This document shows, piece after piece, positions 33,920 to 59,784 of a DNA stretch of 64,000 nucleotides. A program made the translations under genes and the position numbers. How positions within the stretch are numbered: position 1 is the first letter of the stretch; every line of letters starts with the position of its first letter. Source of the DNA: an uncultured cyanobacterium (GTDB lineage: Bacteria > Cyanobacteriota > Cyanobacteriia > PCC-6307 > Cyanobiaceae). Where the stretch lies: NCBI GenBank assembly GCA_903823115.1, contig CAIJRN010000034.1:1-64000 (forward strand). The letters are read 5' to 3'. The notes below the pieces were generated by a model. The model did not search any database, was not told the origin of the DNA, and saw only the letters and a list, made by a program, of their open reading frames with translations.

Positions 33920-35056
33920 ATGGTTGAGCGCAAGCTCGGGGTGAAGGGCCGCCTGCGCCAGGGATTCCGCCGGGCGATGCGCGCCGGTCACCTGCCGGGG
34001 CTCTCCCGCCTGGCCGGCCTCGATCGCGATCAGTGGATGGCCCTGGCCGCCTATCGGGGCCTGGTGCAGCAGGCCTTTGAGAGCCGCCCTCTCGCTCCTC
34101 AGGTGAGCGCCGTGCTCTGGGACAACGGCGCCTTCCATCCCGCCGCCGCTCGCAAGGCGTTCTTCAGCCCAGCGCAGCGCGAGCTGGAAAACTCCTCCCA
34201 TCACTACGGCCATGACATCCAGATCAAGCGCCATGCGGGGCTGCCGCTGATCGGCTCCCCCCTGCCCTGGTTGCTGGAGCACGGACTCAAGGTCAGTCGC
34301 GGCGCCACCTTCGAGCGTCCGTGCGACTGGAGCCGCGGCTATCTCTGCATGGGCCCCCGCCGGGCCGGCTGGTTGCAGGAGCGCTTCGGTCAGCCGGCGG
34401 TGCCGATCGGCCCCTGGATCAGCTATGCCCAGCCGCTGCTGGCGGCGCCGGAGATCGCCAGCCTGCGCCGGCAGCTCGGTTCCACCCTGCTGGTGGTGCT
34501 GGCCCACAGCTGGGACCAGGTGGAGCGCCGCATGGATCAGCGGGCCTGCATTCAGGCCGTGGCCCAGCAGGCCGCCAGCGGCGGCTATCGCTCGGTGATC
34601 TGGCTGCGGCACTGGAAGGATCCCGAGCTGCAGGATCTGCCGCCGCAGTGGATCGTGGCCTGCAATGGCCATCGCTCCAATCCCTGGTTTCTCGATGCCA
34701 TGCGCACGCTGCTGGAGCTCAGTGACGGCCTGGTGAGCAATGCCTTCGGCACCCATCTGGGCTACGGCGTGGCCCTGGGCAAGCGCCTGCACTGGCTGCC
34801 GGTGGCGGCCGAGCAGGATCTCTCCGGCCTCAGTGGCGCCAAGGCCGAGGAGGAGGCGGCCGAGTGGAGCGAGCGCCAGCGGCTGAGCGCCGAACTCTCG
34901 GCCCGCCTGGCCTTGTCCGATGCCGCCGCGGCGCGAGACGCTGTGCGGGAGCTGCTCGATCCCTACTGGGGTTTCGATTGCCTGCGTCCGGCGACTGAGC
35001 TCAAAGGTCTGCTGGCTGGCCCGGCGACGGCGCCTCGGGCGTCCCGGCGCGGCTGA
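33920..35056 (+). CDS. Probable GT-B-like surface carbohydrate protein, family not assigned
   Basis: 378 residues from the ATG at 33920. No signal peptide or membrane helix. The middle contains SHHYGHDIQIKRHAG, GSPLPWLLEHGLKV, CDWSRGYLCMGPRRAGWLQE and VPIGPWISYAQPLL, and the C-terminal half LLVVLAHSWDQVERRMDQ followed by LSDGLVSNAFGTHLGYGVAL. The last resembles the donor-binding region of GT-B transferases that recognise a nucleotide sugar. It sits directly after kdsA-kdsC and before two polymerase-like membrane proteins, so a role in building a Kdo-containing or other surface glycan is inferred. I cannot name the family. Confidence 0.6.
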   Translation: MVERKLGVKGRLRQGFRRAMRAGHLPGLSRLAGLDRDQWMALAAYRGLVQQAFESRPLAPQVSAVLWDNGAFHPAAARKAFFSPAQRELENSSHHYGHDIQIKRHAGLPLIGSPLPWLLEHGLKVSRGATFERPCDWSRGYLCMGPRRAGWLQERFGQPAVPIGPWISYAQPLLAAPEIASLRRQLGSTLLVVLAHSWDQVERRMDQRACIQAVAQQAASGGYRSVIWLRHWKDPELQDLPPQWIVACNGHRSNPWFLDAMRTLLELSDGLVSNAFGTHLGYGVALGKRLHWLPVAAEQDLSGLSGAKAEEEAAEWSERQRLSAELSARLALSDAAAARDAVRELLDPYWGFDCLRPATELKGLLAGPATAPRASRRG

Positions 35057-35093
35057 GACCGTCGCCACGATCCAGCCCCGAGATGCCGTCCCT

Positions 35094-36287
35094 GTGAGTG
35101 CTCCGATCCTGCCTTTCCCCACCGTTGCCCCGTTCCGGATCGATCAGGTCACGGCAGCGCCTCTGGCGATGGCGGCGCTCTTCGGCGCCCAGGTGCTGGT
35201 CGCGGCCCTGATGAGCTGGGCCGCCCGGCGGGAGCGTCTCCGGCTCTGGGCTGGCCTGGCGATGTTGTTGCTGGCCCTGGTGGCTGTGTTCTTCACCCTG
35301 GCCAGCTGGGGTAACAGCGACACCACCAAGCTCAGTCATTACCTGGCTTTTGATCTGTCCCGGGTGCGGGGCGAGCCCTTCTGGATCCTGCTGGCGCCGC
35401 TGGTGGTGCGTCTGCCTTATCGCATGGCGCTGGTGCATGGTCTGGTGGTGGCCGGCTATGCCGCCGCTCCCTTGCTGCTGGCCCGCCACTGGCGGACCCG
35501 GGCCTGGGGCGGCTGGTGGAGCCTGTTGGTCGTCTGCAGTCCGCTGCTGCGCAACTTTCTGCAGAACGGCGTCAGCCGTCAGGCCCTGATGACCCTGTTG
35601 CTGCTGCCCCTGCTGCTCTGGGCGGCCCGCCTGGCCAAGCCGGGCCGCTGGACGCTGGCTGGGGCCACCGGCCTGGCGGCCACGGTGCACACCAGCTTTT
35701 CGCTCACCCTGGTCCTGGCCCTGGCGCCCCGGCTGCTGGCGGTCCGTTCGGTGCTGCGCCTGCACTGGCGGGTGCTGCTGCCCGCTGCTGCCGCCCTGGT
35801 GGTGCTGGTGGCCCTGGCGGCCCCCCATGCCCTGGACAAACTGCGGATCTACAGCTCCCAGGAGAGTTATTTCCCCACCTATGCCCTGCGGCTTGAGGTG
35901 ATCCGGCTCCAGCAGGCCATGGCCCTAGGGGTGCTGCTGGCCTGCTGGCGGCGGCGCCTGGGCTGGCGGCAGTTCCTGGCCTGCGATCGCAGTCGCTCCC
36001 TGGCGAGCTTCGCCCTGCTCCTCTGGTTGCTGCAGCAATCCCTGCACTCGCACCTGATGGCACCGATCACCAGCCGCCTGGTGGATCCGGTGGGCTTTTA
36101 CCTGTTGATCCTCTGGCTGGGCTGGCTGCAGCGGCAGCGTTGCCTCTGGGCTGCGGTGCCGGCCCTGGTGGTCACGGTCCACTACTGGCTGGTCTTGCGT
36201 CTCCTGGGTTCGTTGACGCTGAATTGCGGCATTAACGATGAGTTCCTGTGTATTCCTGATCGCTGGCCCTGGCAGGTGCGCTACTGA
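35094..36287 (+). CDS. Polytopic membrane protein, copy 1 of a tandem pair (polymerase-like)
   Basis: 397 residues from a GTG start. About ten hydrophobic segments with short loops. Shared with the next gene: APFRIDQVT near the N-terminus, VFFTLASWG-SDTT, LPYRMA-VHGLVV and the tail CG-NDEFLC-PDRWPWQV. The overall shape (many helices, conserved Arg/His/Asp in loops such as NGVSRQALMTLLLLPLLL) recalls EpsG/Wzy-type polysaccharide polymerases, but no diagnostic motif is present. It follows the GT-B-like gene by 37 bp on the same strand. Function inferred from context only. Confidence 0.7.
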   Translation: MSAPILPFPTVAPFRIDQVTAAPLAMAALFGAQVLVAALMSWAARRERLRLWAGLAMLLLALVAVFFTLASWGNSDTTKLSHYLAFDLSRVRGEPFWILLAPLVVRLPYRMALVHGLVVAGYAAAPLLLARHWRTRAWGGWWSLLVVCSPLLRNFLQNGVSRQALMTLLLLPLLLWAARLAKPGRWTLAGATGLAATVHTSFSLTLVLALAPRLLAVRSVLRLHWRVLLPAAAALVVLVALAAPHALDKLRIYSSQESYFPTYALRLEVIRLQQAMALGVLLACWRRRLGWRQFLACDRSRSLASFALLLWLLQQSLHSHLMAPITSRLVDPVGFYLLILWLGWLQRQRCLWAAVPALVVTVHYWLVLRLLGSLTLNCGINDEFLCIPDRWPWQVRY

Positions 36288-36371: not shown

Positions 36372-37598
36372 ATGATCGAACCGGTTTTCCCCCTTGCCGC
36401 TCCGTTCCGGATCGATCAGGTGACGGTTGCTCCCCAGGCGGTGACGGGGTTGTTCCTCGCCCAGGGGAGCCTGGCGATCGCCATCCACTGGGCCGGGGTG
36501 CAGCGCCGCTGGTGGCTCTGGCGTGGGGCCGTGGCGCTGCTGCTGCTGCTGACCCTGGTGTTCTTCACCCTGGCCAGCTGGGGAACCAGCGACACCACCC
36601 GCTTCTCCCATTACCTGGAGTGGAACCCGGATCGATCGCCACCGGAGCTGCTCTGGCGCCTGCTGCGGCCCTTGCTGTTATGGCTGCCATATCGCATGGC
36701 GGCGGTCCATGGTCTGGTGGTCAGCGGCTTCGCCGCTGCGGCGATCCTGCTGGCCCACGCCTGGCGTGCCCGGCCCTGGGCTGGCTGGTGGGCCCTGGTG
36801 CTGATCTGCAGTCCGATGTTGCGGGGCTTCATGCAGAACGCCCATTCGCGTCAGGCTCTGGCGGTGCTGCTGCTGCTGCCATGTCTGCTCCAGTGGGCCA
36901 GGTTGGTGCGGCTCGATCGGCGCTCGGTCGGGGCGGGAATGGTGCTTTCGGCCCTCACCCACAACACGTTTGTGTTGAATCTGCCGATCAGCTTGTTGCC
37001 CTGGCTGCAGAGGCTGCCGAAACTGAGTCGTGGCCTGCGTCACCGTCTCAGGGATTTTCGTTGGCAGGATCTCCGCCGCTGCTGGCCCTTGCCGCTCACC
37101 CTGCTGGTGCTGCTGGCGCTGTTTGGGATGGTGTTGCCGAGTGCTTTGGATCGGCTGCAGGATTACTCCCAGGATGACTACTTCAACCACTACCCCGTCA
37201 GCTGGCGTGTCGAGCGCCTTCAGTGGGCGCTGGCTGTTGGATTGCTGCTGGGCTGCCTGCAGCGCCGACTCGATCCGCGCCGTCTGTTGCTGTGCCCCCT
37301 GACTCAGTTGTTGGCGGTCTTCGGCCTGATCTACATCGGCATCCAGCAATCGATTGTCCATCTCTGGCTGCCTCAGGTCACCTGCCGTGTTGCCGATGGC
37401 GTGGCCTTTTTCCTGCTGATCATGTATCTGGCCTGGCTCGATCGTTATCGGGCTCACTGGTGCCTGTTGCCGGTGATGTATATCACCTTTCAGTACTGGT
37501 TGGAGGGCCGGTTGTTGATTTCAGGCAGTCTTGATTGCGGTGTCAACGACGAGTTTCTCTGTCTGCCCGATCGCTGGCCCTGGCAGGTTAATTACTGA
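36372..37598 (+). CDS. Polytopic membrane protein, copy 2 of a tandem pair (polymerase-like)
   Basis: 408 residues, paralog of the preceding gene along its whole length. Shared blocks include PFRIDQVTVAPQAVTGLF, FFTLASWGTSDTTRFSHYL, WLPYRMAAVHGLVVSGF, NAHSRQALAVLLLLPCLL and the final CGVNDEFLCLPDRWPWQVNY. Predicted about ten membrane helices. The Arg/Gln pair in the loop (SRQAL) is kept in both copies, so it may be functional. The stop overlaps the stop of the convergent gene by 7 bp. Likely a polysaccharide polymerase or GT-C-like enzyme; not proven. Confidence 0.7.
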   Translation: MIEPVFPLAAPFRIDQVTVAPQAVTGLFLAQGSLAIAIHWAGVQRRWWLWRGAVALLLLLTLVFFTLASWGTSDTTRFSHYLEWNPDRSPPELLWRLLRPLLLWLPYRMAAVHGLVVSGFAAAAILLAHAWRARPWAGWWALVLICSPMLRGFMQNAHSRQALAVLLLLPCLLQWARLVRLDRRSVGAGMVLSALTHNTFVLNLPISLLPWLQRLPKLSRGLRHRLRDFRWQDLRRCWPLPLTLLVLLALFGMVLPSALDRLQDYSQDDYFNHYPVSWRVERLQWALAVGLLLGCLQRRLDPRRLLLCPLTQLLAVFGLIYIGIQQSIVHLWLPQVTCRVADGVAFFLLIMYLAWLDRYRAHWCLLPVMYITFQYWLEGRLLISGSLDCGVNDEFLCLPDRWPWQVNY

Positions 37599-41184: not shown

Positions 41185-41286
41185 GGCCGGATGGTATCGA
41201 GGCGAGGGCGATGAGGTCGGGGCGACATCGACGGGGGCCCATGCATCAGTAGTGTCCCGCGACGCCAACGCGGTCGTTTGTCAGCC

Positions 41287-42618
41287 ATGCCCTGGAACCC
41301 TCTGCAGCGCCTGGCGCCTGCTGCCCTGATCCCACGGGGCTGGCGGTCTGCCGAGGCCTCCGAGACGCTGCGGCGACGGCTGCCGCTGGTGGTGATCCTG
41401 GTGGGGATCACCGGACTGACCTTCTCGCGGCTGCTGGCCGCAGGGCTCGCTGATCATCTGAACATGTTCGGCCACGAGGGCCTGAGGGCTGTCCAGGCCT
41501 GGGAGAACTTCGGCTTCTTCGCTTGGGGTGGTTTTTTCCACCTTGGTAGCCATTATCTGAGTGCCGATCATGTGATCCTGTCCAAGGAGATTTATCAGTC
41601 TTATCCTCCTCTGTATCTGTTGATTTACTGGCCATCTTACCATTGGTTTGGCGAGTCCGGCTTTCATGCCTTCAAGCTCGTCTGGTCCCTGGGCTATGCC
41701 GTCGCGATGGGCGTGCTGCTCGGCCATGTCGCCAGCTTGTGTTTCACCAGAAAAAAGACAGGCTATGGCCAGCTTGTATTCGCGACTGCCTACGTCATGG
41801 CGATCACCAATCAGGCGATTCTTCGTTATGTCCTGATTGATGAGCCTGACTATCCGGGCTTGCTGCTGCTGCTGCTCGGTGTGGTGATGCTGAGGCGCTG
41901 CTGGCGGCCGTCGGTGCTATCTGAGCGCAGGCCCTGGTGCCTTTGGCTGGTCTGGTTGCTGGCCTCCTGGACCTATCCGATCCTCGGTGCCTTTTGCCTG
42001 TTGAGTGTCTTCGCCCTCCAGCGCCTGCGCCTGGAGCCTGCCGTCCAGGCTTCACTGCGCGGCCTGCTGCCGCCTCTGGGGCTGGGTCTTCTGTTGTACT
42101 GGACTCAACGCATCATCGCCAATCTGGCCTTCCCCGGTGGCCTGACGGGCAGCAGTCTTTTTGATCGCATGGGCCTGACGGCGGCCACGACGTCCAACCA
42201 TCATGGCGTGCTCGATGGCCTGCGGCTCCTGATCTGGCAGAAGTCAGGATCGGATGTGATCAGCTCGCACATGGCGTTGTCGCAGGTGCTGGAGCATGCC
42301 GCCATCTGGATTGTTGGCGTGATTCTGTTTGCGATTGTGCTGGGCCGCCTTCAGGGGGGGAAGCGTCAGCTGCTGCTGATCCTGGCAGCGGGCCAGTTAT
42401 GGCTGTTCATTCCGCTGCTGCATCAATCCGTGGCGTTTCACGATTGGATTTATGCCATCCATTTCGCCCCGACCGTTGTGCTGGGCTGGGTGGGAGCGTT
42501 CGCGGTGCTGATGCCGCAGCACAAGGGCGAAGTTTACGCTCACTGGCTGCTTGGATTTGTCGGGATGTTGATCTGGTCCATCCAGCTCCGATTTTTCCTG
42601 GTCGCCTATCTGCAATGA
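41287..42618 (+). CDS. Polytopic membrane protein, GT-C-like
   Basis: 443 residues from the ATG at 41287 with about ten hydrophobic segments. After the first helix a periplasmic-side loop contains HLNMFGHEGLRAVQAWENFG and a larger loop with Asp/His residues (SADHVILSKEIYQSYPPL), the kind of arrangement seen in GT-C glycosyltransferases using lipid-linked donors. Later segments are rich in Leu/Trp. The 41.56-41.86 kb part is AT-richer than neighbours. Divergent from pcrA with about 100 bp between. Family not assigned. Confidence 0.65.
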   Translation: MPWNPLQRLAPAALIPRGWRSAEASETLRRRLPLVVILVGITGLTFSRLLAAGLADHLNMFGHEGLRAVQAWENFGFFAWGGFFHLGSHYLSADHVILSKEIYQSYPPLYLLIYWPSYHWFGESGFHAFKLVWSLGYAVAMGVLLGHVASLCFTRKKTGYGQLVFATAYVMAITNQAILRYVLIDEPDYPGLLLLLLGVVMLRRCWRPSVLSERRPWCLWLVWLLASWTYPILGAFCLLSVFALQRLRLEPAVQASLRGLLPPLGLGLLLYWTQRIIANLAFPGGLTGSSLFDRMGLTAATTSNHHGVLDGLRLLIWQKSGSDVISSHMALSQVLEHAAIWIVGVILFAIVLGRLQGGKRQLLLILAAGQLWLFIPLLHQSVAFHDWIYAIHFAPTVVLGWVGAFAVLMPQHKGEVYAHWLLGFVGMLIWSIQLRFFLVAYLQ

Positions 42619-42790
42619 CCCTGGTCCGGGGCGTTGCTCCTTCTGGGTTCATTCCCGTCTGAAGTGCTGACGTTGCTGAGCGTCATTGTTGCGTCAGGCT
42701 GAAGACAACGGCAGCGGCCCAGTCCTCTGGCTGCAGACTTTGCTGTCCACTTGGACGTGTGTTCTAGATTGCATCGTCGCTCTCCGCCGG

Positions 42791-43507
42791 ATGGTTGTGG
42801 TCGCCTCAACGCAAGCCCCCATCCCGCTCTTCATCGGCTACGACCCGCGGGAGCGGGCGGCCACCGCCGTGCTGATCGACAGCCTGGTGCAGCACAGTTC
42901 CCTGCCCCTGGCGATCACGCCGATCGTCACGCCCCAGCTGGAGGCCCTCGGCGTGTTCCAGCGTGAGCGCGATCCGAAGCAGGCCACGGCCTTCTCCTTC
43001 ACCCGTTTTCTGGTGCCCTATCTGATGGGCTACAGGGGCTGGGCCATCTTCATGGACTGCGACATGCTCTGCCGCGGCGACATCGCCGAGCTCTGGGCCG
43101 AACGGGATGATCGCTATGCCGTGCAGTGCGTGCAGCACGAGCACAATCCCAGCGAGGCGGTGAAGTTCCTGGGCGAGCCCCAGAGCCCCTATCCCAAGAA
43201 GAACTGGAGCTCCCTGATGCTCCTGAACTGCGAGCGCTGCACAGCCCTGACACCCGACTACGTGAACACCGCCAGCGGCCTGGAGCTGCATCGCTTCCAC
43301 TGGCTGGCCGGGGATCAGGAGATCGGTGCCCTCGAGGATCGCTGGAATCACCTCGTGGATGTGCAGGATCCCGCCCGTGCTCAAGGGGCGAGCCTGTTGC
43401 ACTGGACCCTCGGCGGCCCCTGGTTCCGGGAGCAGGCCTTCATGGGTGGGGCGCTGGCTGCGGAGTGGTACCGGGCCCGCGATGACGCGATGCGCCTGTG
43501 GGATTGA
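42791..43507 (+). CDS. Glycosyltransferase, GT-A fold (GT8-like)
   Basis: 238 residues from the ATG at 42791. Seen: PIPLFIGYDPRERAATAVL at the N-terminus, SFTRFLVPYLMGYRGWAIFM followed by the metal-binding DCD (residues near 95), then NWSSLMLLNCERC and LHWTLGGPWF at the C-terminus. This matches galactosyl/glucosyl transferases that resemble GT8 and related bacterial families with the pattern FTRF...MDCDML. An earlier in-frame start would give an unlikely N-terminus. The stop overlaps the next gene by 10 bp. Confidence 0.8.
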   Translation: MVVVASTQAPIPLFIGYDPRERAATAVLIDSLVQHSSLPLAITPIVTPQLEALGVFQRERDPKQATAFSFTRFLVPYLMGYRGWAIFMDCDMLCRGDIAELWAERDDRYAVQCVQHEHNPSEAVKFLGEPQSPYPKKNWSSLMLLNCERCTALTPDYVNTASGLELHRFHWLAGDQEIGALEDRWNHLVDVQDPARAQGASLLHWTLGGPWFREQAFMGGALAAEWYRARDDAMRLWD

Positions 43508-44523
43508 GCGAGTCAACCGCCGGCCAGCAAGCTGTCCTGAGCATCGTCACGGTGTGCATGAATCGGCTGGAGCACCTGATCAGCACGGCACAGCGGGTGG
43601 CCGCCTGGCCCGTTCATCAGGAGCATCTGATCGTCGACTGGAGCAGTGAGGAGCCGGTTCGGCGCGAGCACCTGCCCGCGGACCCTCGCATCCGGCTGCT
43701 GCGGGTGGAGGGCGAGCCCAGCTGGAACCTGTGCCGTGCCTACAACTTTGCGGTGGCCCGGAGCCGGGGGGACTGGATCCTCAAGCTCGATGCGGACACC
43801 TGGCCGACGCAGGACTTTGATCCGATGGCGGTGGCCCTGGGCCAGTCAGACCAGGGCCAGGGCGATCCCTGTGCCTTCGGCAGCGGTCCTGAGGGACGCA
43901 AGGGCCAGTTCCTGATGTCGCGCCAGCTGTTCGTGGCGGTGGGTGGTTTCAACGAGCATCTGATCGGCTACGGCTTCGACGACAAGGATCTGCAGGCGAG
44001 GTTGGCGGTGCACAGGGGCCAGGACGCGGCGGCGATTCCTGAAGCCTGGATCGGCGTGATTCCCCATTCCGATGCGGAGCGGGCCGGCCAGGGACGCTCC
44101 GGCCGCCTGCACTGGCTGGAGGCGTCGCGGGGGCTGGCGGCGATGCGGGCCTCGCGGCTCAGCAATCGTCTGCTGGCGGCCCATTGCCCCTGGAGTGGCC
44201 GGGCTGGGGCGTCGTCTTACCAGGAGCGCTCGCGGGGGGTGTGGCAGGTGGAGCCAGCCTCGATTCCCCGGCTGCCGCTGGCGGTGGCCGATGAAATCGA
44301 GCATGCCCGGCGCATGACCTTCTGGGGTTGCTTCCTCGCCATCCCGGACATCTTTCTCGAGGTGTTGCCGTTCAAGCTCTTTCCCCCCAGCCGCAAGGGG
44401 CGCTGGGACGTGCGCTGGTGGCATCGCCTCTACTGGCACAGCGGCCGCCGGCTGCTGCAGATGCCGGTCCTGCTGCTGGCCTTCAGCCGGGGCAGCCTGC
44501 GCGGTTGGCAGCGGCCCGGATGA
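43498..44523 (+). CDS. Glycosyltransferase family 2-like, with galactosyltransferase-type C-terminal motif
   Basis: 341 residues from a GTG that overlaps the preceding gene (a TTG at 43504 is an alternative). GT-A features: LSIVTVCMNRLEHLIST, RAYNFAVARSRGDWILKLDADTW (metal-binding DAD), and VGGFNEHLIGYGFDDKDLQ, the GGxNE-GYGxED/DKDL motif of the GT7 C-terminal type. The C-terminal 70 residues are rich in Arg/Trp/Phe and may associate with the membrane. The stop overlaps the next start as ATGA, so the three genes form a coupled set. Confidence 0.82.
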   Translation: MGLSESTAGQQAVLSIVTVCMNRLEHLISTAQRVAAWPVHQEHLIVDWSSEEPVRREHLPADPRIRLLRVEGEPSWNLCRAYNFAVARSRGDWILKLDADTWPTQDFDPMAVALGQSDQGQGDPCAFGSGPEGRKGQFLMSRQLFVAVGGFNEHLIGYGFDDKDLQARLAVHRGQDAAAIPEAWIGVIPHSDAERAGQGRSGRLHWLEASRGLAAMRASRLSNRLLAAHCPWSGRAGASSYQERSRGVWQVEPASIPRLPLAVADEIEHARRMTFWGCFLAIPDIFLEVLPFKLFPPSRKGRWDVRWWHRLYWHSGRRLLQMPVLLLAFSRGSLRGWQRPG

Positions 44524-45377
44524 TTCGCCTGGTTCTGGTCTCCAACGGCATCCATCTGGAGGCCGCCCGGCGGCGGCGGCGCGCCCCGGGCTGCCACTCC
44601 AGGCCCGGGATCGAATTGTTGCTCTGGGATCGGGATCGCTGCCCGCTGAGCGCCGCCGATCGCCAATGCTGGCCGTTGCATCTGGCGATCCGCCCGGGGT
44701 GGTTGAGCTTGCTGGCCCTGTTGGCGCTGTTCGGGCTGGTGCGGGAGCTGGCCATCGCCCATCGACGCGGTGCCGGCCGCGCCCTGCGCCTGCTGTTGCT
44801 CTGGGTGCCGCGGCTGGAGCTGCTTGATGACGGTCTCGATCAGTACCGGGACAGCCCCCGGGCCATCGATCCCCAGCAATTCGCAGCGGGTGCCCCCTAC
44901 TGGTTGTTTTCCGATGCCCCGGCCCATCGGGCTCTCTGGTGCTCCCGCTTCGACATTCGCGAGCTTGGCCCGCTCTATCGACCAGAGCCGGTCGCGCCGT
45001 CGTTGCCCCCGGAGCCCCCGGAGCAGCAGGGGCTGGGCACGCTCCTGATCGATGCGCCCGGCCTGGAGCGGCTGCAACCGCTGGCGGCTCGCCTGCCCCA
45101 CCCGTGGCTGTTGATGCCCCATCCGGTGCGCGCCAAGCAGTCCTGGCGGCTGCCGCTGGCGGCGAGCGATCGGCTGCTGGAGGGTCCACCGGAGCCCTGG
45201 ATCGCCCACTTCGCCGGGCTGGTGGTGGTGGGCGAGAGCATGACCCTGCTGGCCGCGGCCCGGCTGCGGCCAGCGGGAGGCCGCTGGTTGGTGGCGCTGC
45301 CGGAGGCTGCTGACGCCAATCTGGGTCGCCTGGCACAGGCTCTGGTGGCCGGGGATGCCTGTGCTCAGCTGTTCTGA
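44520..45377 (+). CDS. Sialyltransferase-like (GT-B) protein, uncertain
   Basis: 285 residues. The full set of bacterial polysialyltransferase-type motifs is present: DDG at residues 103-105 (ELLDDGLDQYR), HP at 201-202 (LLMPHPVRAKQSW) and a Ser motif at 240 (VVVGESMTLLAAARL). A short hydrophobic segment near residues 62-73 (LSLLALLALFGL) may be part of the fold or a membrane contact. ATGA-coupled to the upstream glycosyltransferase. No sialic-acid synthesis genes are in the window, but CMP-Kdo synthesis genes are, so another CMP-sugar donor is possible. Low certainty on function. Confidence 0.5.
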   Translation: MIRLVLVSNGIHLEAARRRRRAPGCHSRPGIELLLWDRDRCPLSAADRQCWPLHLAIRPGWLSLLALLALFGLVRELAIAHRRGAGRALRLLLLWVPRLELLDDGLDQYRDSPRAIDPQQFAAGAPYWLFSDAPAHRALWCSRFDIRELGPLYRPEPVAPSLPPEPPEQQGLGTLLIDAPGLERLQPLAARLPHPWLLMPHPVRAKQSWRLPLAASDRLLEGPPEPWIAHFAGLVVVGESMTLLAAARLRPAGGRWLVALPEAADANLGRLAQALVAGDACAQLF

Positions 45378-45404: not shown

Positions 45405-47039
45405 GTGATGTCGCCACTCTCCGGCTCGGCATCGGCCCGTTCGTCGGCGATGCTCCCCACTCCCTGGCTGGCGGGCTGGACGATCCGCGAAGCCCGCAAT
45501 TGGTCACTGGTTTTTCTGGGGCTGTTTCTGGCGATTCACTGGCAGGAAGTCAGTTCTCCCACCTGGAATGTGGATGACTGGGCCCTGGTCGGTGAACGGA
45601 TTGAGCAGTCCCGGCAGAGCAGGCCGGCCTGGGATCTGATCTATCCGCTGCTGTTTCAGAACAGTTTTTCACCGTTCTTCGGCTGGTTGCTGGCCGCGGG
45701 CTCGCTCTATGCGATGGCGGCCGCCACGGCGGTGTTCTGCCCGTTGATCACGCCGGCCTGGGCCTGTCTGCTGGCCCTGGTGGTGAGCCTGCATAGCTAC
45801 ACCCTTGACCTGTTCAATTTCAGTTTTGCCATCGGGCTCTATCTGCTGCCGGCGGCTCTTTCGATCTGGGGCGGTGTGCTGATGGGCTATGGCCCGCCGC
45901 TGCCGCTGCTAGGACGCCGCTGGCTGGACTGGCTGCTGGGGGTGCTGATGCTGATGGTGGCGATGGGCATCTATCAGCCCACCGGTTACCTCGGCATCGG
46001 TCTGCTCGGGTGGCAGGCTCTGGTCTGGGCCCTGGATCAGCGCCGTTTCAGCCGAGCTGCGGCACCTCGTCTGATTGCCGGTGTCGGAGTTGGCGGGGTT
46101 CTTTATTACATCTGGGCGCTGATCATGCTGCGGGGCGAGGAGGCAAACTCCCGCACCGGCTTCTCGGATCTGCCTCGCTTTCTGGAGAAGTTGAGCGCTC
46201 TCGGTGTTTACAAGGAGATCTATAACACCAAGGTTTCACTGGCTTCGACCGCGCCCCAGTTCATCCTTTCGATCACGTTCCTGCTGCTGTTGCTGGTGCT
46301 CAGTGGCTGGGTGCTGCGTCAGCAGCGCAGCCGGCAGGAGCGGCGCCAGCGCCTGGCCTGGCTCTGGTTCGCTGCCCTGTTCCTGACTCTGCTGCCGTTG
46401 CTGCTGTTCTATCTGCTGAGCTCAGGGTTCCCGTCCAGGTCCTTCTGTCTCGGCAATCTCGGCATCGGCAGTTTCAGCGTGATCGCCCTGGCGACCCTGC
46501 AATCCTCCTGGCGCGCACGGGGCCTCTCGCGGCTGCTCGTGGCGCTGCTGATCGTCTTCTACCTGATTCCACAGGCCGCCTTCGCCTCCAGGGTCTGGGA
46601 ACTGAGCCAGTTGCTCGAGCGCCGCGACATCGCCCTGGCCCAGGCGATTGCGGCGGATGTGCGCGCTGAGGCCAGGCGCACCGGTGTGGCGGCTGATGTG
46701 TTCGAAGTGTTCGGCACCACGGAGCGCAATCAGCCCTTTCCCCACTGGAGCAGTGTCGGTGAATCGGCCTTCCGCCAGAGCTGGAGCATCGAGGCGATCT
46801 TCCGGCAGTTGCTGCGGCAGCCTGTGCGCCACATCGCCTATCGCCACGAGGGCAATGAACAGGAGGTGCGGGCCTCCCTGCCCGCCTGTCAGGCCTATCC
46901 CGAACTCGGTTCGATCGTGCGTCATGGGGACCGCTGGCTGGTCTGCCTGGAGGCCAATCCTCCGTCGGCCCAGACCAGATCCGATCTGATCCAGTCCGCT
47001 GCAGCTCCCCCTCAGGACGCTGGGCCTCGCCAACCCTGA
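45405..47039 (+). CDS. GtrII-like glucosyltransferase, membrane GT-C type
   Basis: 544 residues with roughly ten membrane helices. The first large loop has SSPTWNVDDWALVGER, carrying the adjacent Asp pair typical of GT-C active sites, followed by a long extracytoplasmic C-terminal part after the last helix (from about residue 400). This matches the GtrII family, which adds glucose or another sugar to O-antigen using an undecaprenyl-linked donor. The GtrB-like and GtrA-like genes that supply such donors lie immediately next to it, converging from the other strand with 25 bp between stops. Confidence 0.75.
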   Translation: MMSPLSGSASARSSAMLPTPWLAGWTIREARNWSLVFLGLFLAIHWQEVSSPTWNVDDWALVGERIEQSRQSRPAWDLIYPLLFQNSFSPFFGWLLAAGSLYAMAAATAVFCPLITPAWACLLALVVSLHSYTLDLFNFSFAIGLYLLPAALSIWGGVLMGYGPPLPLLGRRWLDWLLGVLMLMVAMGIYQPTGYLGIGLLGWQALVWALDQRRFSRAAAPRLIAGVGVGGVLYYIWALIMLRGEEANSRTGFSDLPRFLEKLSALGVYKEIYNTKVSLASTAPQFILSITFLLLLLVLSGWVLRQQRSRQERRQRLAWLWFAALFLTLLPLLLFYLLSSGFPSRSFCLGNLGIGSFSVIALATLQSSWRARGLSRLLVALLIVFYLIPQAAFASRVWELSQLLERRDIALAQAIAADVRAEARRTGVAADVFEVFGTTERNQPFPHWSSVGESAFRQSWSIEAIFRQLLRQPVRHIAYRHEGNEQEVRASLPACQAYPELGSIVRHGDRWLVCLEANPPSAQTRSDLIQSAAAPPQDAGPRQP

Positions 47040-47064
47040 GTGACGCGGTGTGCGGCAGCACGGC

Positions 47065-47463
47065 TCAGCCGGCCGATCGATAGCTCAGGCGCGTCAGCAG
47101 GAAGGAGCTCGCGGCCCACAGCACCATGGTGATCAGGGCAATGGCGGCGCGATTGAAGGCCAGCCGCTGCAGGGCGCCGGCCGCGGCGAGGCTGAGTCCG
47201 AGGCAGCCCAGCTGGATGAGCGCGTAGCGCCCCAGCAGGGCCAGCCGGAAGGGCACGCGGAAGCTGTAGCGCGCATGCAGCACCGCATTCAGCACCAGGC
47301 AGATCGCTCCGGCGATGGCCACGGCGGCGGTGGCGCTGCCGCCGGCCAGGCTCACCAGGGCGAACAGGGCCAGGTACAGCAGTTCGCCGCAACCGCCCAC
47401 CAGCAGAAAACGCACGAGCTGATGCTGCAGGGGACGTCGCAGTCGCCGCAGGATCGTTCTCAC
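47065..47463 (-). CDS. gtrA: GtrA-family membrane protein (flippase-like)
   Basis: 132 residues from a GTG start that overlaps the gtrB-like stop as GTGA. Four hydrophobic segments: FLLVGGCGELLYLALFALV, AAVAIAGAICLVLNAVL, LLGRYALIQLGCLGLSLA and ALITMVLWAASSFLLT, with the loop HARYSFRVPFR after the second, typical of GtrA. GtrA proteins are thought to flip undecaprenyl-phosphate-glucose for O-antigen modification. An open frame extends to 47577 but only reads through gtrB. Confidence 0.85.
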   Translation of the reverse strand: MRTILRRLRRPLQHQLVRFLLVGGCGELLYLALFALVSLAGGSATAAVAIAGAICLVLNAVLHARYSFRVPFRLALLGRYALIQLGCLGLSLAAAGALQRLAFNRAAIALITMVLWAASSFLLTRLSYRSAG

Positions 47464-48440
47464 ACCTGTTCGCGGCCGCCGAGGGGCTCCAGGCTGCGCA
47501 CGAAGGACTGGGGCCTGCCGCTGACCGTCAGGAAGATCCGGCCCAGGTATTCCCCCAGCATGCCGATCAGCAGGCATTGCAGACCACCGAACAGCAGGAT
47601 CGCCGAAATGATCGACAGCCAGCCCTGCACCTGGCGGCCCTGCAGCAGGCTCTCCAGCAGCAGCCCCACCAGGGTGATGCCGCCGGCCAGGGCCAGCACC
47701 ACTCCCAGCAGCGAGGCCAGCCGCAGGGGCATGATCGAAAAACTGGTGAAGATGTTCAGCCAGAGCCGGATCAGGCGCCGCAGATTGTAACCGCTGTCCC
47801 CCGTTTCGCGCCGGTCGTGCTGCACCTTGAGGCTGCCGATGGCGGTGGTATATAGCGACAGCAGGCCGTCGATGTAGGGATAGGGGCCGCGATAGTCGGC
47901 CGCCTGCTGGGCCACCACGCCGGCCACGCAGCGGAAGCTGGAGAGGTAGAAGCGATCGGGCAGATCCAGCAGCCAGTTGGCGGTGCGATTGGCGAAGCGG
48001 CTGCCCAGGTTGCGCCAGCCGGCGTGCTGTTTCTGGCGGTAATCGCCGTAGACGACATCCAGCTCTTCGGCCAGGGCTTTGTGCCAGAGGCGCAGGCCTT
48101 CTTCCGGTGGATTCTGGAGATCGTCATCGAGGTTGATCACATGGCGGCCCCGGGCGTGGCGGTAGCCGGTGAGCACGGCCTGGTGTTCGCCGAAGTTGCG
48201 GCCATGGCGGATCAGCACCCCCTGCAGTGGGCTGCCCTGCAGCCGCCGGCGCAGCCGGGCCACCGTGTCGTCGGGGCTGCCGTCATCGACCAGCACCAGC
48301 TCCCAGGGGCCTGGCACCTTCAGGGTTTCCAGGCGGCTGACCAGGGCGTCGACGCTGCCGCTGCTGCGGTAGAGGGGGATCACCAGGCTGAGGATCGGCG
48401 TGGGATCGCCGCTGGTCGGGGGGGAGGGCGGCTCCGGCAT
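47460..48440 (-). CDS. gtrB: GtrB/ArnC-like polyprenyl-phosphate glycosyltransferase
   Basis: 326 residues. N-terminal GT2 domain: LSLVIPLYRSSGSVDALVS, LVLVDDGSPDDT, RHGRNFGEHQAVLTGYRHA and the metal site NLDDDLQNPPEE. Two C-terminal membrane helices (LASLLGVVLALAGGITLVGL and ISAILLFGGLQCLLIGMLGE) match enzymes that load a sugar onto undecaprenyl phosphate. Next to gtrA-like and GtrII-like genes, it likely makes Und-P-glucose for O-antigen decoration. It follows the methyltransferase by 6 bp on the minus strand. Confidence 0.88.
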   Translation of the reverse strand: MPEPPSPPTSGDPTPILSLVIPLYRSSGSVDALVSRLETLKVPGPWELVLVDDGSPDDTVARLRRRLQGSPLQGVLIRHGRNFGEHQAVLTGYRHARGRHVINLDDDLQNPPEEGLRLWHKALAEELDVVYGDYRQKQHAGWRNLGSRFANRTANWLLDLPDRFYLSSFRCVAGVVAQQAADYRGPYPYIDGLLSLYTTAIGSLKVQHDRRETGDSGYNLRRLIRLWLNIFTSFSIMPLRLASLLGVVLALAGGITLVGLLLESLLQGRQVQGWLSIISAILLFGGLQCLLIGMLGEYLGRIFLTVSGRPQSFVRSLEPLGGREQV

Positions 48441-51518: not shown

Positions 51519-52589
51519 TCAGCTGCAGTCCCGCAGGACTTGCAGCACCTGCCGGGCGCTGGCCTCCCACTGAAAGTGAGCCGCTCGCGGTGGTCCCGCC
51601 GCGCTGAGCGACTGGGCCAGGTCCGCTTCCCGGCCGATGCGGCTGATCGCATCGGCGATCTGAGCCGGGGCGCGCGGATCCACCAGCAGGGCCGCATCGC
51701 CCACCACCTCCGGCAGGGCGCCGGCCCGAGCGGCGATCACCGGCGCGCCGCAGGCCATCGCCTCCAGGGCCGGCAGGCCGAAGCCCTCCCAGAGGCTCAC
51801 CAGCACCAGGGCCCGGCAGCGGTTCAGCAGCTCCAGCCGCTCCTGATCACTCACCCAGGCGATCCAGTCGCAGCGATCGGCGATGCCGAGCTCGGCGGCC
51901 AGGCGTTGCAGGGGCGGTGTGTAGCGAGCGTCGTGGGGGCCCACCAGCTTCAGCCGTAGCTCCCGCCCCGGATCGCTGACGGCGGCGAAGGCCCGCAGCA
52001 CCCGGGCCAGATTCTTGTGGGGATCGTGGCGGCCGAGCACCAGGACAAACGGTTCGCGCGCCAGGCCGAGCGGCCGCAGCCGCCCGGGGTCGAAGCCCAG
52101 CCGGATCGGCACCAGCCGCCGGGCCGGCACCCCCAGCCGCCCATGCACCTCCCGGGCGGTGGCCTCGGAGTTGCACAGCACCTTCACGGCTCGATGCAGC
52201 ACCAGGGGCACATAGGCCAGGTGGTAGGCCAGCAGGGGGGTGAGCTGGGGATAGCGCAGGGGCAACAGGTCGTGGACCAGCACCACCGAGCGCACCCCCC
52301 GCAGCAGCGGCGCCTCCGGCAGGGGCGAGAGCAGCAGCGGCGCGCCGCTGGCGCGCAGCAGGCGCGGCAGCTGGTTCTGGGTCCAGCGCAGCCGTTCCAG
52401 ATGGCCGCGGCGGCCGTGATGCGGCGAGAGGTTGGCGGGGATCGGCAGGCTGCCGGGACGGTCGCCCGCCAGGGGATCGAGCAGGGGCACCAGGTCCGGA
52501 TCCAGGGCGGCCACCAGATCGCGGGCCACCACACCGATGCCCGTGGGCCTGGAGCTCAGGTAGCTGCCGTTGAAGAGGGCGAGGGGCAT
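51519..52589 (-). CDS. Glycosyltransferase family 4 (mannosyltransferase-like)
   Basis: 356 residues, GT-B fold. Seen: PTGIGVVARDLVAAL at the N-terminus, VVLVHDLLPLRYPQLTP, CNSEATAREVHGRL, the donor-domain strand FVLVLGRHDPHKNLARVLRA, and the E-x7-E motif WEGFGLPALEAMACGAPVIA with DAALLVDP. Typical of LPS or capsule mannosyl/rhamnosyl transferases. Starts 4 bp after the stop of the GT2 gene, so both are co-transcribed, probably upstream of the SDR operon. Confidence 0.92.
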   Translation of the reverse strand: MPLALFNGSYLSSRPTGIGVVARDLVAALDPDLVPLLDPLAGDRPGSLPIPANLSPHHGRRGHLERLRWTQNQLPRLLRASGAPLLLSPLPEAPLLRGVRSVVLVHDLLPLRYPQLTPLLAYHLAYVPLVLHRAVKVLCNSEATAREVHGRLGVPARRLVPIRLGFDPGRLRPLGLAREPFVLVLGRHDPHKNLARVLRAFAAVSDPGRELRLKLVGPHDARYTPPLQRLAAELGIADRCDWIAWVSDQERLELLNRCRALVLVSLWEGFGLPALEAMACGAPVIAARAGALPEVVGDAALLVDPRAPAQIADAISRIGREADLAQSLSAAGPPRAAHFQWEASARQVLQVLRDCS

Positions 52590-52593
52590 GGTC

Positions 52594-53562
52594 TCAGGCG
52601 GGTTCCTGCAACACGATGGCCATCGCCTGCAAGACCGCCAGGCTGCGCCGGGGTCGCAGCGGCAGTCGCAGCAGGCTGAGCAGCAGCAGCCGCAGGCTGC
52701 GCAGCGCCACCACCCAGCCGGGGCTGTAGCGGCGCAGGAAGCGCAGATAGCTCAGGGTGGACAGCTGCAGCCGCCGGGGCCCGGGGGCGACGCTGCCGGT
52801 GCCCTTGCGATGGACGATCACCGGCTGCGGCAGCCACAGCACCGGTGCCCCCTGGCGGGCGAGGCGCAGGCAGAGGTCCATGTCCTCGTAATAGAGAGGA
52901 AAGCGTTCGTCGAAGCGGACGGCGCCGGGATGGGCCGCCGGTTTCAGCGCCAGGCTGCAGCCGCTCAGCCAGTCGAGGGCCAGGGGGGCAGCCGGCTCGT
53001 GCTGCATCGCGGCGCGGGGATCAAGGCGCCGGCCGCGGAAGGCGAGGCCGCCGCTGAACCAGCCGCCGCTGGACTCGTAGCCCCCGGCTCCATCGGCGAC
53101 GGCGGTGCCCACCACAGCCGACTGGGGCAGATGCCGCAGTCGGGCCCGCAGGCAGGCCAGTTCATCCCCGACCGGCAGGCCGGTGTCGGGATTGAGCAGC
53201 CACACCCAGCCGTCCCAGTGCTCTGCGGCCAACACATCCAGGGCCCGGTTGCAGCCCGCCGCGAAACCCTCCCCCTCAGCGCCCTCGATCGTCCGGATCC
53301 GCAGCCCGGCGGCGTTGTGCGTCAGCAGATCGCCATGCAGGGGTGCCGATTCAGGGCTGTTGTCCACCACCAGCCAGGCCTCGGCTGGTGGTGACTGGGC
53401 CGCCAGATCCCTGGCCAGGGCTGGCAGCACCGCAGCGCTGCCGTAGGCCACCGTGACCACGGCGATCCGCTCACTGCCGGTATCGGAGACGGTGGCGATG
53501 GTGGCGGCGTGAGGGAAAGTGGCGATGGGCGCGGCGTTCCTCTGGCCCGAGTTTCGCAGCAT
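52594..53562 (-). CDS. Glycosyltransferase family 2 (rhamnosyltransferase-like)
   Basis: About 322 residues. N-terminal IAVVTVAYGSAAVLPAL, WLVVDNSPESAP, GFAAGCNRALDVL and the metal site VWLLNPDTGLPVGDE. Later WLSGCSLALKPAA and FPLYYEDMDLCLRL, the ED-Y-EDxDLC block of rhamnosyl-type GT2 enzymes. C-terminal hydrophobic helices (WVVALRSLRLLLLSLLRL) may anchor it. Start chosen at the ATG 53562, which shares its CATG with the divergent HIT gene; an ATG at 53625 is also in frame. Coupled to the GT4 gene. Confidence 0.9.
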   Translation of the reverse strand: MLRNSGQRNAAPIATFPHAATIATVSDTGSERIAVVTVAYGSAAVLPALARDLAAQSPPAEAWLVVDNSPESAPLHGDLLTHNAAGLRIRTIEGAEGEGFAAGCNRALDVLAAEHWDGWVWLLNPDTGLPVGDELACLRARLRHLPQSAVVGTAVADGAGGYESSGGWFSGGLAFRGRRLDPRAAMQHEPAAPLALDWLSGCSLALKPAAHPGAVRFDERFPLYYEDMDLCLRLARQGAPVLWLPQPVIVHRKGTGSVAPGPRRLQLSTLSYLRFLRRYSPGWVVALRSLRLLLLSLLRLPLRPRRSLAVLQAMAIVLQEPA

Positions 53563-54064
53563 GATCGACCCCTCCAGCTGTGGTGTCTGCCTGATCCATG
53601 GGGACCTGGCCAGCTCCGGCTTCACCCAACCTGCACGCGCCAGCGCCGCTGGGCCCGGGGATCTGGCGATCGGTCGCTTCGGCCCCTGGCTTCTTCGCCA
53701 CCATCCTTTACCGGCGCCACTGGTGGGCTGGCTGATCCTCGACAGCCTGCGTCATGTCGGCGGCCCGGCTGATTTCAATGCGCTCGAAACGGCCGCCCTG
53801 GGACCGATCCTGCAGCGCAGTTCTGCCCTGGTGCGGGAACTGTGCGGCTGTCAGCGGGTCTATGCGATCGCCTTCGGCGAAGGGGCGCGCCACTTTCATC
53901 TGCATCTGATCCCCCGCCATGGCTCCGATCCGGCCACCGAGAGCTGGCGCGTGGCCGATCTCTACCGGGCGGTGAGTGCCGGTGAGCGCCCGGAGGCGGA
54001 TGCGGATTCCGTGCTGCAGCTGGTGCGCCGGGCCCGCCAGGCCAGTGACGACTGGCAGCTCTAG
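53561..54064 (+). CDS. HIT-family (histidine triad) nucleotide-binding protein
   Basis: 167 residues from the ATG at 53561 (an in-frame GTG at 53519 is possible). Typical features: CGVCLIHGD at the N-terminus (CxxC, often zinc-binding in HIT proteins), GWLILDSLRHVGG, and the triad HFHLHLIPRH with the three His residues of the active site. Family members hydrolyse or transfer nucleotide adducts (for example Ap4A or AMP-lysine); the substrate here is unknown. It is transcribed toward kdsB, 27 bp downstream. Confidence 0.85.
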   Translation: MIDPSSCGVCLIHGDLASSGFTQPARASAAGPGDLAIGRFGPWLLRHHPLPAPLVGWLILDSLRHVGGPADFNALETAALGPILQRSSALVRELCGCQRVYAIAFGEGARHFHLHLIPRHGSDPATESWRVADLYRAVSAGERPEADADSVLQLVRRARQASDDWQL

Positions 54065-57684: not shown

Positions 57685-57749
57685 GTCCGCTTTCGGGGGC
57701 TCAGGCCCCCAGTTGGGTCCGTGTCCATGCATCAGCCCCCTTGTTGGGA

Positions 57750-57775
57750 CCCATGGTTGAGGCCCATGGTTGAGG
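57750..57775. repeat. Perfect tandem 13-bp duplication
   Basis: CCCATGGTTGAGG occurs twice in direct tandem (57750-57762 and 57763-57775), in the intergenic region upstream of the membrane protein gene. Likely a recent slippage event; no known motif. Confidence 0.8.
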
Positions 57776-57888
57776 CCCCAGGTCTGGGCCTGGATCGATA
57801 TCCCAATCAGCGGGATGACCAGCTGAGATTCCTCGGTATCGTTATACCCCCGAATCCAAGTCCCCTGTCCCTGAATCCAGGCCACCGG

Positions 57889-59784
57889 ATGCTGCGGAGA
57901 ACGATCCGGCCTGATCAGGCCACGGCAGGTTCTGATGCCTCCCGGCCTGGATCCTCCAACACGGTGGTGTGGCCTCCATCCCCGCTGCGGCTGCTGCTGC
58001 TGGGCCTGTGGCTGCTGGTGCTGGTTGGGCTGGGGCTGCAGGCCTGGCAGCAGGGCTCGCTCGTCGGCAGCTACGACCCTGGCCTCGATCAACTGCTCTA
58101 CGCGGGGCAGAGGCGGCTGGTCGGCGCCCTGAGCGCCCTCGACTTTGTCAACGGCACTCCTCTGGTCGCGCAATATCTCTATGCCCCCTCCGCCTGGCTT
58201 GGGAATTGGCTGGGCACGCTGCGCCCGCACCGGCTGCTGATGCTGGCGCTGACGCTCTTCGGCAGCGGCCTGCTCTGGTCCAGCCTGCGTCAACTGGGCA
58301 GCCTGGGCTGGCTGCCCCTGCGTCGCCATTCCCTGGTGCCACCGTTTGCGGCCCTGCTCTATGTCGTCTTTGTGCAGCTGTTCCCGCTGGGGTTTTCGGG
58401 ATTGCTGCCGTCGATCATCGACACCCTGCTGCTGCTGGCCGTGTGTCTGGTGATCCGGGCCGTGACGCTTCGGGCTCGGATGGGCGGTGCTCACGGGAGT
58501 GGTGCCGCTGCCCGTGGGCCTGCGTCCGGAGCCAGCGTCAGCCTGGCTCTGGCCGGGGCCGTGCTGCTGCTGAGCGTCAATGCCCTGCCGTCGCTGTTCT
58601 CGCCCCTGCTGCTGCTGGCCGTGTTGCTGGTGCTCTTGCTGGAGCCGCGCTGGCCCTGGCCCCTGGTGCTGCCGGTCCTCGGCGGAGGATTCCTGGCGTT
58701 GCTGCTGCTGCTGCCCTATCTGGCCCAGCCGGGTGGTCTGGTGCGGGCCTGGGCCGGGGCGGTTCAGTTGCCGCTTGAATTGGCCAGCCGTGGTTCAGGT
58801 TCACCCCAGGGGGAGTTCCCGCTGAAGCGCCTGGCGCAGCTGCTGACCCTGAACGTGGCCGGACTGCCGCTCTGGCTGTTCGGCCTGGTGCCCGTGCTGG
58901 AGCTGTTGCGGCGTTGGCGAACCGGCGGACGGGCGCTGTTGTTGCTGCCGGCGCTCGCGGTGCTCTTCAGCCTGGATCTGCTGCTGGCGCTTCAGGGCGG
59001 CGACTCCAGCCGCAACGATCTGGTGCTGCTGGTGCCGCCCCTGCTGCTGCTGATCAGCGCGGGTCTGGCCTCCCTGGAGAGCAGCCCCCAGCGCCGGCTG
59101 CGGCGAACAGCCGCGGTCACCCTGCTGCTGGTGTCCCTGATTCTCTGCAACAACGTCTTCCTTGCCGCCGCCCTGCACCCGGCACGAGCGCCCAAGGCGC
59201 CCCTGCTGGAACTGGAGCACGATCGCGCCGCCGTGCGCGCCTATGTCAGCGCCCTGCATCCGGCCCCGACCTCCCTGCAGGTCCCGCAGGACACGGCCCT
59301 GCTGCGGGAGCTGGCCCTGGCTTCAGCCAGCGTCGGCGTTGGCCCCGACTGGAGTCTCGACCAGCAGAACCTGCCGTCCAGCTGGGCCACGCGCCTCCTC
59401 GGTCTGCCCGTCGGCCCGGCCGAGGCCTGCCGTCAGCTCACAGCAGCCCGCCACGATCTGGTGATCTGGATGCGCACCGATTCGCGGGGGCCGAACAGCG
59501 AGGCCTCCCTGCGGGCCTGCCTCGCCAGCGATGGGGCTCGCTGGCAGCCGCTCGCTGAGCCGTTGGGCTTGCGCAGCGGCCAGATCCAGGTGTTCCGTCG
59601 CCTCGCTCCGGCCCTGCCCTGCGGGCGATTCAGATGCCATAACCCTGGGGATTGGCCTGTTGCCAGGCCCAGCCGTCCCGGCAGATCTCAGCCAGGCCGC
59701 GACGGGTGCTCCAGCCCATGCGCCGCTCGGCTGCGGTCGCATCGGCGATGCTCATGGCCGAATCTCCCGGCCGCCTGGCGCTGA
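57889..59784 (+). CDS. Large polytopic membrane protein, GT-C-like, unknown function
   Basis: About 631 residues from the ATG at 57889 (MLRRTIRPDQATAG). About ten hydrophobic segments from residue 33 onward, with an early periplasmic-side loop VGSYDPGLDQLLYAG carrying Asp residues as in GT-C enzymes, and a soluble C-terminal domain after the last helix (LLLVSLILCNNVFLAAAL). The reading frame ends at 59784, overlapping the 3' end of galE on the other strand by 155 bp. The last ~50 residues are Arg/Pro/Cys-rich and look like readthrough of the galE antisense strand. Family not recognised. Confidence 0.65.
   Translation: MLRRTIRPDQATAGSDASRPGSSNTVVWPPSPLRLLLLGLWLLVLVGLGLQAWQQGSLVGSYDPGLDQLLYAGQRRLVGALSALDFVNGTPLVAQYLYAPSAWLGNWLGTLRPHRLLMLALTLFGSGLLWSSLRQLGSLGWLPLRRHSLVPPFAALLYVVFVQLFPLGFSGLLPSIIDTLLLLAVCLVIRAVTLRARMGGAHGSGAAARGPASGASVSLALAGAVLLLSVNALPSLFSPLLLLAVLLVLLLEPRWPWPLVLPVLGGGFLALLLLLPYLAQPGGLVRAWAGAVQLPLELASRGSGSPQGEFPLKRLAQLLTLNVAGLPLWLFGLVPVLELLRRWRTGGRALLLLPALAVLFSLDLLLALQGGDSSRNDLVLLVPPLLLLISAGLASLESSPQRRLRRTAAVTLLLVSLILCNNVFLAAALHPARAPKAPLLELEHDRAAVRAYVSALHPAPTSLQVPQDTALLRELALASASVGVGPDWSLDQQNLPSSWATRLLGLPVGPAEACRQLTAARHDLVIWMRTDSRGPNSEASLRACLASDGARWQPLAEPLGLRSGQIQVFRRLAPALPCGRFRCHNPGDWPVARPSRPGRSQPGRDGCSSPCAARLRSHRRCSWPNLPAAWR

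Follow-up and report, generated by a model that had tools for sequence, protein, structure and literature searches.

The window analyzed here is a 64,000-nucleotide (nt) stretch of contig CAIJRN010000034.1 from an uncultured cyanobacterium of the Cyanobiaceae (assembly GCA_903823115.1, positions 1 to 64,000 of the forward strand), and our subject is a set of genes that meet tail to tail near its 47-kb mark. On the plus strand lies the gene for a GtrII-like transferase of 544 amino acids (aa). Facing it on the minus strand is a cassette for a GtrA-family membrane protein, a GtrB-type transferase, and three putative sugar-making enzymes (Table 1). Among relatives, the transferase and GtrA are convergent neighbors at every locus where the junction can be read, and we think it probable that the whole is an extracytoplasmic glycosylation system of three components, similar to Arn and Gtr systems, with its own sugar-making genes and laid out as two convergent operons. 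The earlier note on this stretch had described a GtrII-like, GtrB, and GtrA set with the transferase on the opposite strand, and this is borne out by the Pfam matches (PF14264, PF00535, and PF04138) and by the strands of the open reading frames (ORFs).

Gene calls and packing of the locus

The minus-strand genes follow one another tightly in the order SDR-DegT-methyltransferase-GtrB-GtrA (SDR, short-chain dehydrogenase/reductase). SDR and DegT overlap by 1 base, as do DegT and the methyltransferase, and a gap of 6 nt separates the methyltransferase from GtrB. The GtrA ORF was first listed as 47065-47577 (minus strand, 170 aa); the likely start is the GTG at 47463, which gives a protein of ~132 aa and overlaps the GtrB stop as GTGA, with 4 nt in common. 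From packing and layout, we infer that the minus-strand and plus-strand runs are operons. Where the earlier note had gtrB-gtrA "fused" to a methyltransferase-aminotransferase-SDR operon, the operon-like packing stands, but there is no gene fusion.

Table 1. Features of the convergent locus, followed by adjoining genes (window coordinates)
Feature	Position	Strand	Basis
GtrII-like GT-C transferase (fold class likely), 544 aa	45405-47039	+	ORF; GTG 45405, next codon ATG 45408; PF14264
Convergent junction, 25 nt, stop codon to stop codon	47040-47064		ORF ends
GtrA, small membrane protein, GtrA flippase family	47065-47463	-	PF04138; probable GTG start
GtrB/ArnC-like polyprenyl-phosphate sugar transferase, 326 aa	47460-48440	-	PF00535
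S-adenosylmethionine-dependent methyltransferase, 259 aa	48447-49226	-	PF13489, 59.8 bits
DegT/DnrJ/EryC1/StrS sugar aminotransferase, 382 aa	49226-50374	-	PF01041, 284.7 bits
Extended SDR, nucleotide-sugar epimerase/dehydratase family, 345 aa	50374-51411	-	PF01370, 150.8 bits
GT4 glycosyltransferase, upstream in minus-strand run	51519-52589	-	PF00534, 110.1 bits
GT2 glycosyltransferase, outer gene of minus-strand run	52594-53625	-	Borderline: PF00535, 23.2 bits, cut-off 23.3
Genes upstream of transferase: 446-aa membrane protein, GT8-like, GT2-like, 349-aa protein	41278-45377	+	ORFs, Pfam

Identity of the transferase and the donor enzymes

At the family level, the assignment of the 544-aa protein to GtrII is established. 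The earlier note had offered a place outside GtrII-like families as grounds for giving up its claim. That refutation fails: in a domain scan, residues 48-347 match PF14264 with 51.4 bits (E = 1.2e-13, cut-off 30), and residues 28-300 are also above the cut-off at 33.8 bits. No PF14264 match was returned for residues 28-420 in the domain scan or for the full-length protein in hmmscan, and of 13 members of the transferase family put whole through Pfam scans, 3 match PF14264. The full-length miss was considered as a refutation of GtrII identity and rejected, because the domain scans and a profile search with filters switched off show that it stems from the search itself, most likely from HMMER's filters. 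In that filter-free search, against a profile of 16 other GtrII proteins from relatives, the full 544-aa protein scores 71.2 bits and the best control 6.0 bits (the controls were 20 shuffles, reversed family members, and 20 other window proteins with their reverses). Aligning the transferase-family alignment with that of the other GtrII proteins in hhalign gives a probability of 99.1. The relatives L004 (86% identity) and L080 (52%) pass the PF14264 cut-off whole, the latter by 0.1 bit, and the Tobar12-5m-g relative also passes with a stretch of 483 aa. The whole of L073 and long stretches of L072, L120, and L127 had no PF14264 match in hmmscan, although the L073 gene reaches 38.2 bits in the genome search.

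The fold class is likely GT-C, judging from the predicted structure (AlphaFold; predicted local distance difference test 70.7, predicted template modeling score 0.66). In structural alignment the 47 best rows, which from their names we take to be GT-C enzymes or relatives (e.g., a PIG-U type subunit), have Z of 9.1-15.4, with the next row at 4.5; mostly helical models can reach Z 14 with this tool through a common arrangement. Foldseek alone was weak (best E 0.013), and a PDB sequence search with the transferase-family profile gave no matches. The model places acidic residues in the first extracytoplasmic loop of the GT-C fold: Asp57-Asp58, positioned after the first helix, is invariant in 13 of 13 family members, and D[DE] is present in 10 of the 16 other GtrII proteins.

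On the donor side, GtrA matches PF04138 with 31.7 bits (cut-off 26.1) and GtrB matches PF00535 with 71.9 bits. GtrB is similar over nearly its full length to solved relatives in the PDB, namely ArnC (146.6 bits, residues 13-316) and Synechocystis GtrB (sll0501; 112.9 bits, residues 14-317), and its 152.4 bits with the NCBIfam ArnC equivalog NF007986 are far under the cut-off of 529. The PDB matches of the DegT protein include the sugar aminotransferases 2oga, WbpE, and QdtB, several of which are C3-specific, and the motif FYPTKN is kept in 16 of 16 aligned homologues. For the methyltransferase, Pfam and NCBIfam indicate an unspecific class. The SDR carries Asn in place of the catalytic Tyr expected in the YxxxK motif (PVDVNGINK), as do its homologues, 15 of 15 in the alignment (16 loci were tried; L127 is absent). 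The PDB relatives displayed in five alignments (four variants of a single UDP-glucuronate decarboxylase and one UDP-glucose 4-epimerase) have Tyr there. The chemistry of this enzyme may depart from that of usual SDRs. No Pfam or NCBIfam match to a formyltransferase (ArnA) or deformylase (ArnD) was obtained for any of the five cassette proteins. Because GtrB scores highest with ArnC and the operon has an SDR, a DegT enzyme, and a methyltransferase, the donor is probably not plain glucose; the cassette product is likely a lipid-linked, possibly methylated, amino sugar.

The junction and its island in related genomes

A search of 119 genomes recovered transferase relatives in 11, all from the genus of the window, and further ones came from records of named freshwater Synechococcus strains (Tobar12-5m-g and 1G10 among the carriers of the module) or metagenome-assembled genomes (MAGs). 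This makes 17 places with a transferase relative (14 from the genome search, plus L120, L122, and L127). Thirteen enter the junction count; left out are the paralogues L079, L080, and L081, which have no GtrA, and G005, where a contig end cuts the locus. Transferase and GtrA are convergent neighbors at all 13 of these loci, which represent 12 genomes. Stop-to-stop distances range from +159 to -194, and the genes overlap at eight loci, at seven of them by 55-67 nt and all in one phase (at L120, where GtrA matches piecewise and in shifted frames, the 55-nt overlap is that of its final piece). Given these same-phase overlaps, it is more likely that the junction was inherited than that it was made anew each time. 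As a side observation, one record that carries this cyanobacterial locus is titled as a Bifidobacterium breve MAG (L118, CALPNT020000135.1), and that label is therefore probably wrong.

Convergence is not the rule among the other GtrII genes compared, although their number is small. In 16 stretches around GtrII genes outside the transferase family (some of them short contigs), four have a co-directional GtrB-like gene (L132, L133, L134, and L136) and in one more, L142, the GtrB-like match is weak (44 bits) and lies ~4.9 kb off on the opposite strand; 11 of the 16 have no GtrB-like gene, and GtrA was detected by profile in none.

The two halves of the locus also go together across genomes. Among 42 genomes of the same genus, a GtrA homologue is present in 11 of 11 that carry the transferase versus 8 of 31 that do not (one-sided Fisher p = 1.8e-5, uncorrected for relatedness or linkage). 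Distances between transferases co-vary with those between methyltransferases (r = 0.94, 55 pairs), GtrB proteins (0.93, 36 pairs), GtrA proteins (0.86, 66 pairs), and the flanking UvrD (0.70, 21 pairs), as calculated from 13 transferase, 12 GtrA, 9 GtrB, 11 methyltransferase, and 7 UvrD sequences, each a best hit over more than half of the query.

Of most value are genomes in which the set is split. The full run, SDR-DegT-methyltransferase-GtrB-GtrA, occurs in the window, L072, L073, L082, L120, L122, and L127, as far as the contigs reach, and the cut contigs L004 and L074 have the same GtrB version over as much of the minus-strand run as they retain. At the island in G001, G018, G036, and G039 the run is methyltransferase-GtrA only, and G005 looks alike across a contig break. 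In G001 and G036, which have one GtrA match each, the SDR-DegT-GtrB trio is on another contig, with no GtrA in the stretch examined there; in G018 another contig has the SDR followed by the beginning of DegT, where the contig ends, again with no GtrA in the stretch examined. Transferase, GtrA, and methyltransferase thus stay together while SDR-DegT(-GtrB) is on another contig, and this links GtrA with the transferase. These split sets are the strongest argument that the transferase has GtrA and the methyltransferase as its partners and that the SDR-DegT-GtrB trio can act from elsewhere.

The set lies in a chromosomal island flanked by uvrD and hit-kdsB (the kdsB name rests on a CTP_transf_3 match) in seven genomes: the window, L072, L073, L075, L076, L122, and strain 1G10. 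In L082 uvrD is beside the transferase and kdsB is on the far side of uvrD; the remaining contigs end too early to show both flanks. Synechococcus sp. 1G10 (NZ_NQKW01000013.1) has two convergent modules in tandem (L120 and L127), each with both halves. Between them is a 5' remnant of uvrD (residues 33-166, DNA 85% identical to the intact gene), a sign that the island may have grown at the beginning of uvrD.

Within the window, the plus-strand run upstream of the transferase includes a 273-aa GT8-like protein with a weak Pfam score (22.2 bits, cut-off 24.3), a 341-aa GT2-like protein (30.4 bits), and the 349-aa protein, which has no Pfam match. Four genes, at 34920-36287, 36372-37598, 41278-42618, and 57721-59784, encode membrane proteins that have 6-10 hydrophobic segments and lack a convincing Pfam match; the island may have in them additional GT-C enzymes or polymerases.

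Interpretation and comparison with known systems

In the three-component system that we propose, the SDR and the DegT enzyme would produce a nucleotide-linked amino sugar and the methyltransferase would methylate it. GtrB would load the sugar onto undecaprenyl phosphate, GtrA would carry the lipid-linked sugar over to the periplasmic side, and its transfer to a surface glycan, itself the product of the neighboring glycosyltransferase genes, would fall to the GtrII-like GT-C enzyme. The flipping step follows a general hypothesis for the GtrA family. The pairing of this GT-C enzyme with this donor, like the identity of the sugar, is what we infer, and it is the glycosyltransferase-like genes nearby that point to a surface glycan as the putative acceptor. 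A scheme of lipid-linked donor, flippase, and GT-C enzyme is set out in PMC11127046 and PMC7389260.

Several observations weigh against this proposal. The 13 loci are related by descent, and so represent one conserved arrangement rather than 13 events. Eight genus-mates (L088-L095) carry donor genes without the transferase, and the donor may therefore serve other enzymes; in these, the SDR-DegT-GtrB-GtrA cassette, whole or partial, is at other chromosomal sites, and in six of them (L090-L095) a more distant methyltransferase (30-38% identical) adjoins GtrA. The window's own genome contains other candidate users of the donor, namely a second GtrII protein on C69 (L001/L084), an orphan paralogue on C74 (L081), and the further membrane proteins of the window that lack a convincing family match; no GtrA or GtrB was found in the stretches around the C69 protein or the C74 paralogue. 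The SDR and DegT of the cassette were not found in G005, G039, and G016 (84%, 73%, and 64% complete, respectively; the island contig of G016 ends within GtrB). Finally, the GtrA of L120 and the DegT of L127 were matched in pieces and in shifted frames, so one or both of the 1G10 modules may be damaged.

Some of these points lead to an alternative that we consider unlikely but worth weighing, in which the two operons are neighbors without a shared reaction: GtrB-GtrA would supply a donor to other GT-C enzymes, and the GtrII-like protein would use a different polyprenyl-phosphate sugar. The eight genus-mates just described fit this idea, as do the transferase paralogues in three genomes (L079-L081), which have no GtrA or GtrB in the stretches examined. 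In addition, GT2 proteins related to GtrB occur in 117 of 119 genomes, so that another donor enzyme would be available. The second ground on which the earlier note would have given up its claim, that GtrB works only for other GT-C enzymes of the island, may hold. However, the adjacency of transferase and GtrA is kept even where SDR-DegT(-GtrB) is elsewhere, transferase distances co-vary with those of the cassette proteins, and the tandem modules of 1G10 have both halves each time.

Improbable, in our judgment, is a modification of the Arn type, with lipid A, the lipopolysaccharide core, or a protein as acceptor instead of an O-antigen side-chain position. The high score of GtrB with ArnC, the aminotransferase in the cassette, the presence of ArnT among the fold matches (Z 11.2), and the proximity of kdsB could all be read this way. 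Yet the transferase matches PF14264, ArnT ranks no higher than 35th in the list of fold matches, formyltransferase and deformylase matches are absent from the five cassette proteins, and glycosyltransferase-like genes are found on both sides of the module.

The layout also bears on regulation. A scan of 44.3-54.1 kb gave five terminator-like sites against 2.7 in shuffles, with none at the window junction, and one promoter site against a shuffle mean of 0.5. The earlier note took the layout to point to independent regulation of donor supply and transferase. Two transcription units would follow from the layout, but independence is only one reading of them, as the tail-to-tail junction is conserved, 7 of the 13 junctions overlap in one phase, and the distances co-vary. 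It is quite doubtful, in turn, that the junction is itself functional, with the operons reading into each other's 3' ends and antisense transcripts balancing donor supply against the level of transferase, in a module that decorates the cell surface of freshwater picocyanobacteria with a so far undescribed methylated amino sugar; the basis cited for the antisense element is the overlap at 8 of 13 loci and the lack of a terminator-like site in the window junction.

Phase or phage-related surface variation, also raised in the earlier note, found no support in a limited series of tests (homopolymers, GATC, repeats, PHROGs on ten proteins, island flanks, and tRNA), and it is most improbable that this is a phage-related or phase-variable serotype-conversion set with donor and transferase independently regulated. 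GtrB does score 180 bits with phrog_841 (GtrB-like) in PHROGs, and the transferase has a weak GtrC-like match there (E 0.0033). Against a phage origin, the ten proteins scanned gave no match to any PHROGs family with a structural or integration name (several matches are to families of unknown function), uvrD and hit-kdsB border the island in seven genomes including the window, and the single tRNA in the window is 36 kb distant. Foldseek of the transferase model against BFVD viral models gave no match at E <= 0.001. As regards phase variation, a 526-nt stretch around the beginning of the outer GT2 gene on the minus strand holds 10 GATC sites, 1.7 times the window average, but GATC is dense across the window (722 sites, 11.3 per kb) and is at or below this average before the transferase (2 in 304 nt) and before the SDR gene (3 in 301 nt). 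Phase-variable gtr in Salmonella has as its signature, upstream of gtrA, a set of four GATC sites together with OxyR-like motifs (PMC3688519); our comparison with it concerns GATC sites alone. The 41-54 kb region has no homopolymer of at least 8 and one (TGC)5 tract, at 41861. Among the repeats of the 45.2-48.6 kb region (direct, 15 families; inverted, 20 pairs; all imperfect; raw counts without a chance estimate) we see no clear invertible element: the longest inverted arms are 29 nt at 83%, and one 22-nt pair at 73% brackets the three Gtr genes. Separately, GCGATCGC, which we take to be the cyanobacterial HIP1 repeat, occurs 20 times in the window versus 2.5 expected from base composition.

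In titles and abstract openings, we recognized no description of a convergent GT-C/GtrA layout, and the literature search found nothing on a GtrII glucosyltransferase in cyanobacteria. The gtrA/gtrB of PMC11851481 are names for an unrelated TRAP transporter. Among known systems, gtrA-gtrB-gtr(type) of Shigella and Salmonella likewise has a GtrA-family protein, a GtrB-type transferase, and an adjoining GtrII-family enzyme. However, the transferase here is on the opposite strand and not in one co-directional operon with the others, the donor genes include an SDR, a DegT aminotransferase, and a methyltransferase, and the set is within a chromosomal glycan island. The Arn pathway (ArnB, ArnA, ArnC, flippase, and ArnT) is similar in its aminotransferase, SDR, ArnC-like GT2, small membrane flippase candidate, and GT-C transferase. 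It differs in that here a PF14264 enzyme stands in for ArnT, a methyltransferase is added, there are no formylation genes in the cassette, and GtrA takes the place of ArnE/F. Pentofuranose addition by GT136 (PMC11127046) and the teichoic acid GtcA systems (PMC7389260) have the same combination of lipid-linked donor, flippase, and GT-C enzyme, with other donor enzymes and other GT-C families; Listeria GtcA, which serves two polymers, is a precedent for a shared flippase (PMC7389260).

Overall, the layout looks like a conserved variant of these three-part surface-sugar systems, and not like a phage or switching element. It would extend the three-component logic of Gtr and Arn to freshwater picocyanobacteria, where the module has a dedicated sugar-making cassette and its division into two operons is conserved. 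The surface-glycan island from uvrD to hit-kdsB is a place to look for phage-receptor variation, and the split sets in three relatives offer a natural test of which GtrA pairs with which transferase.

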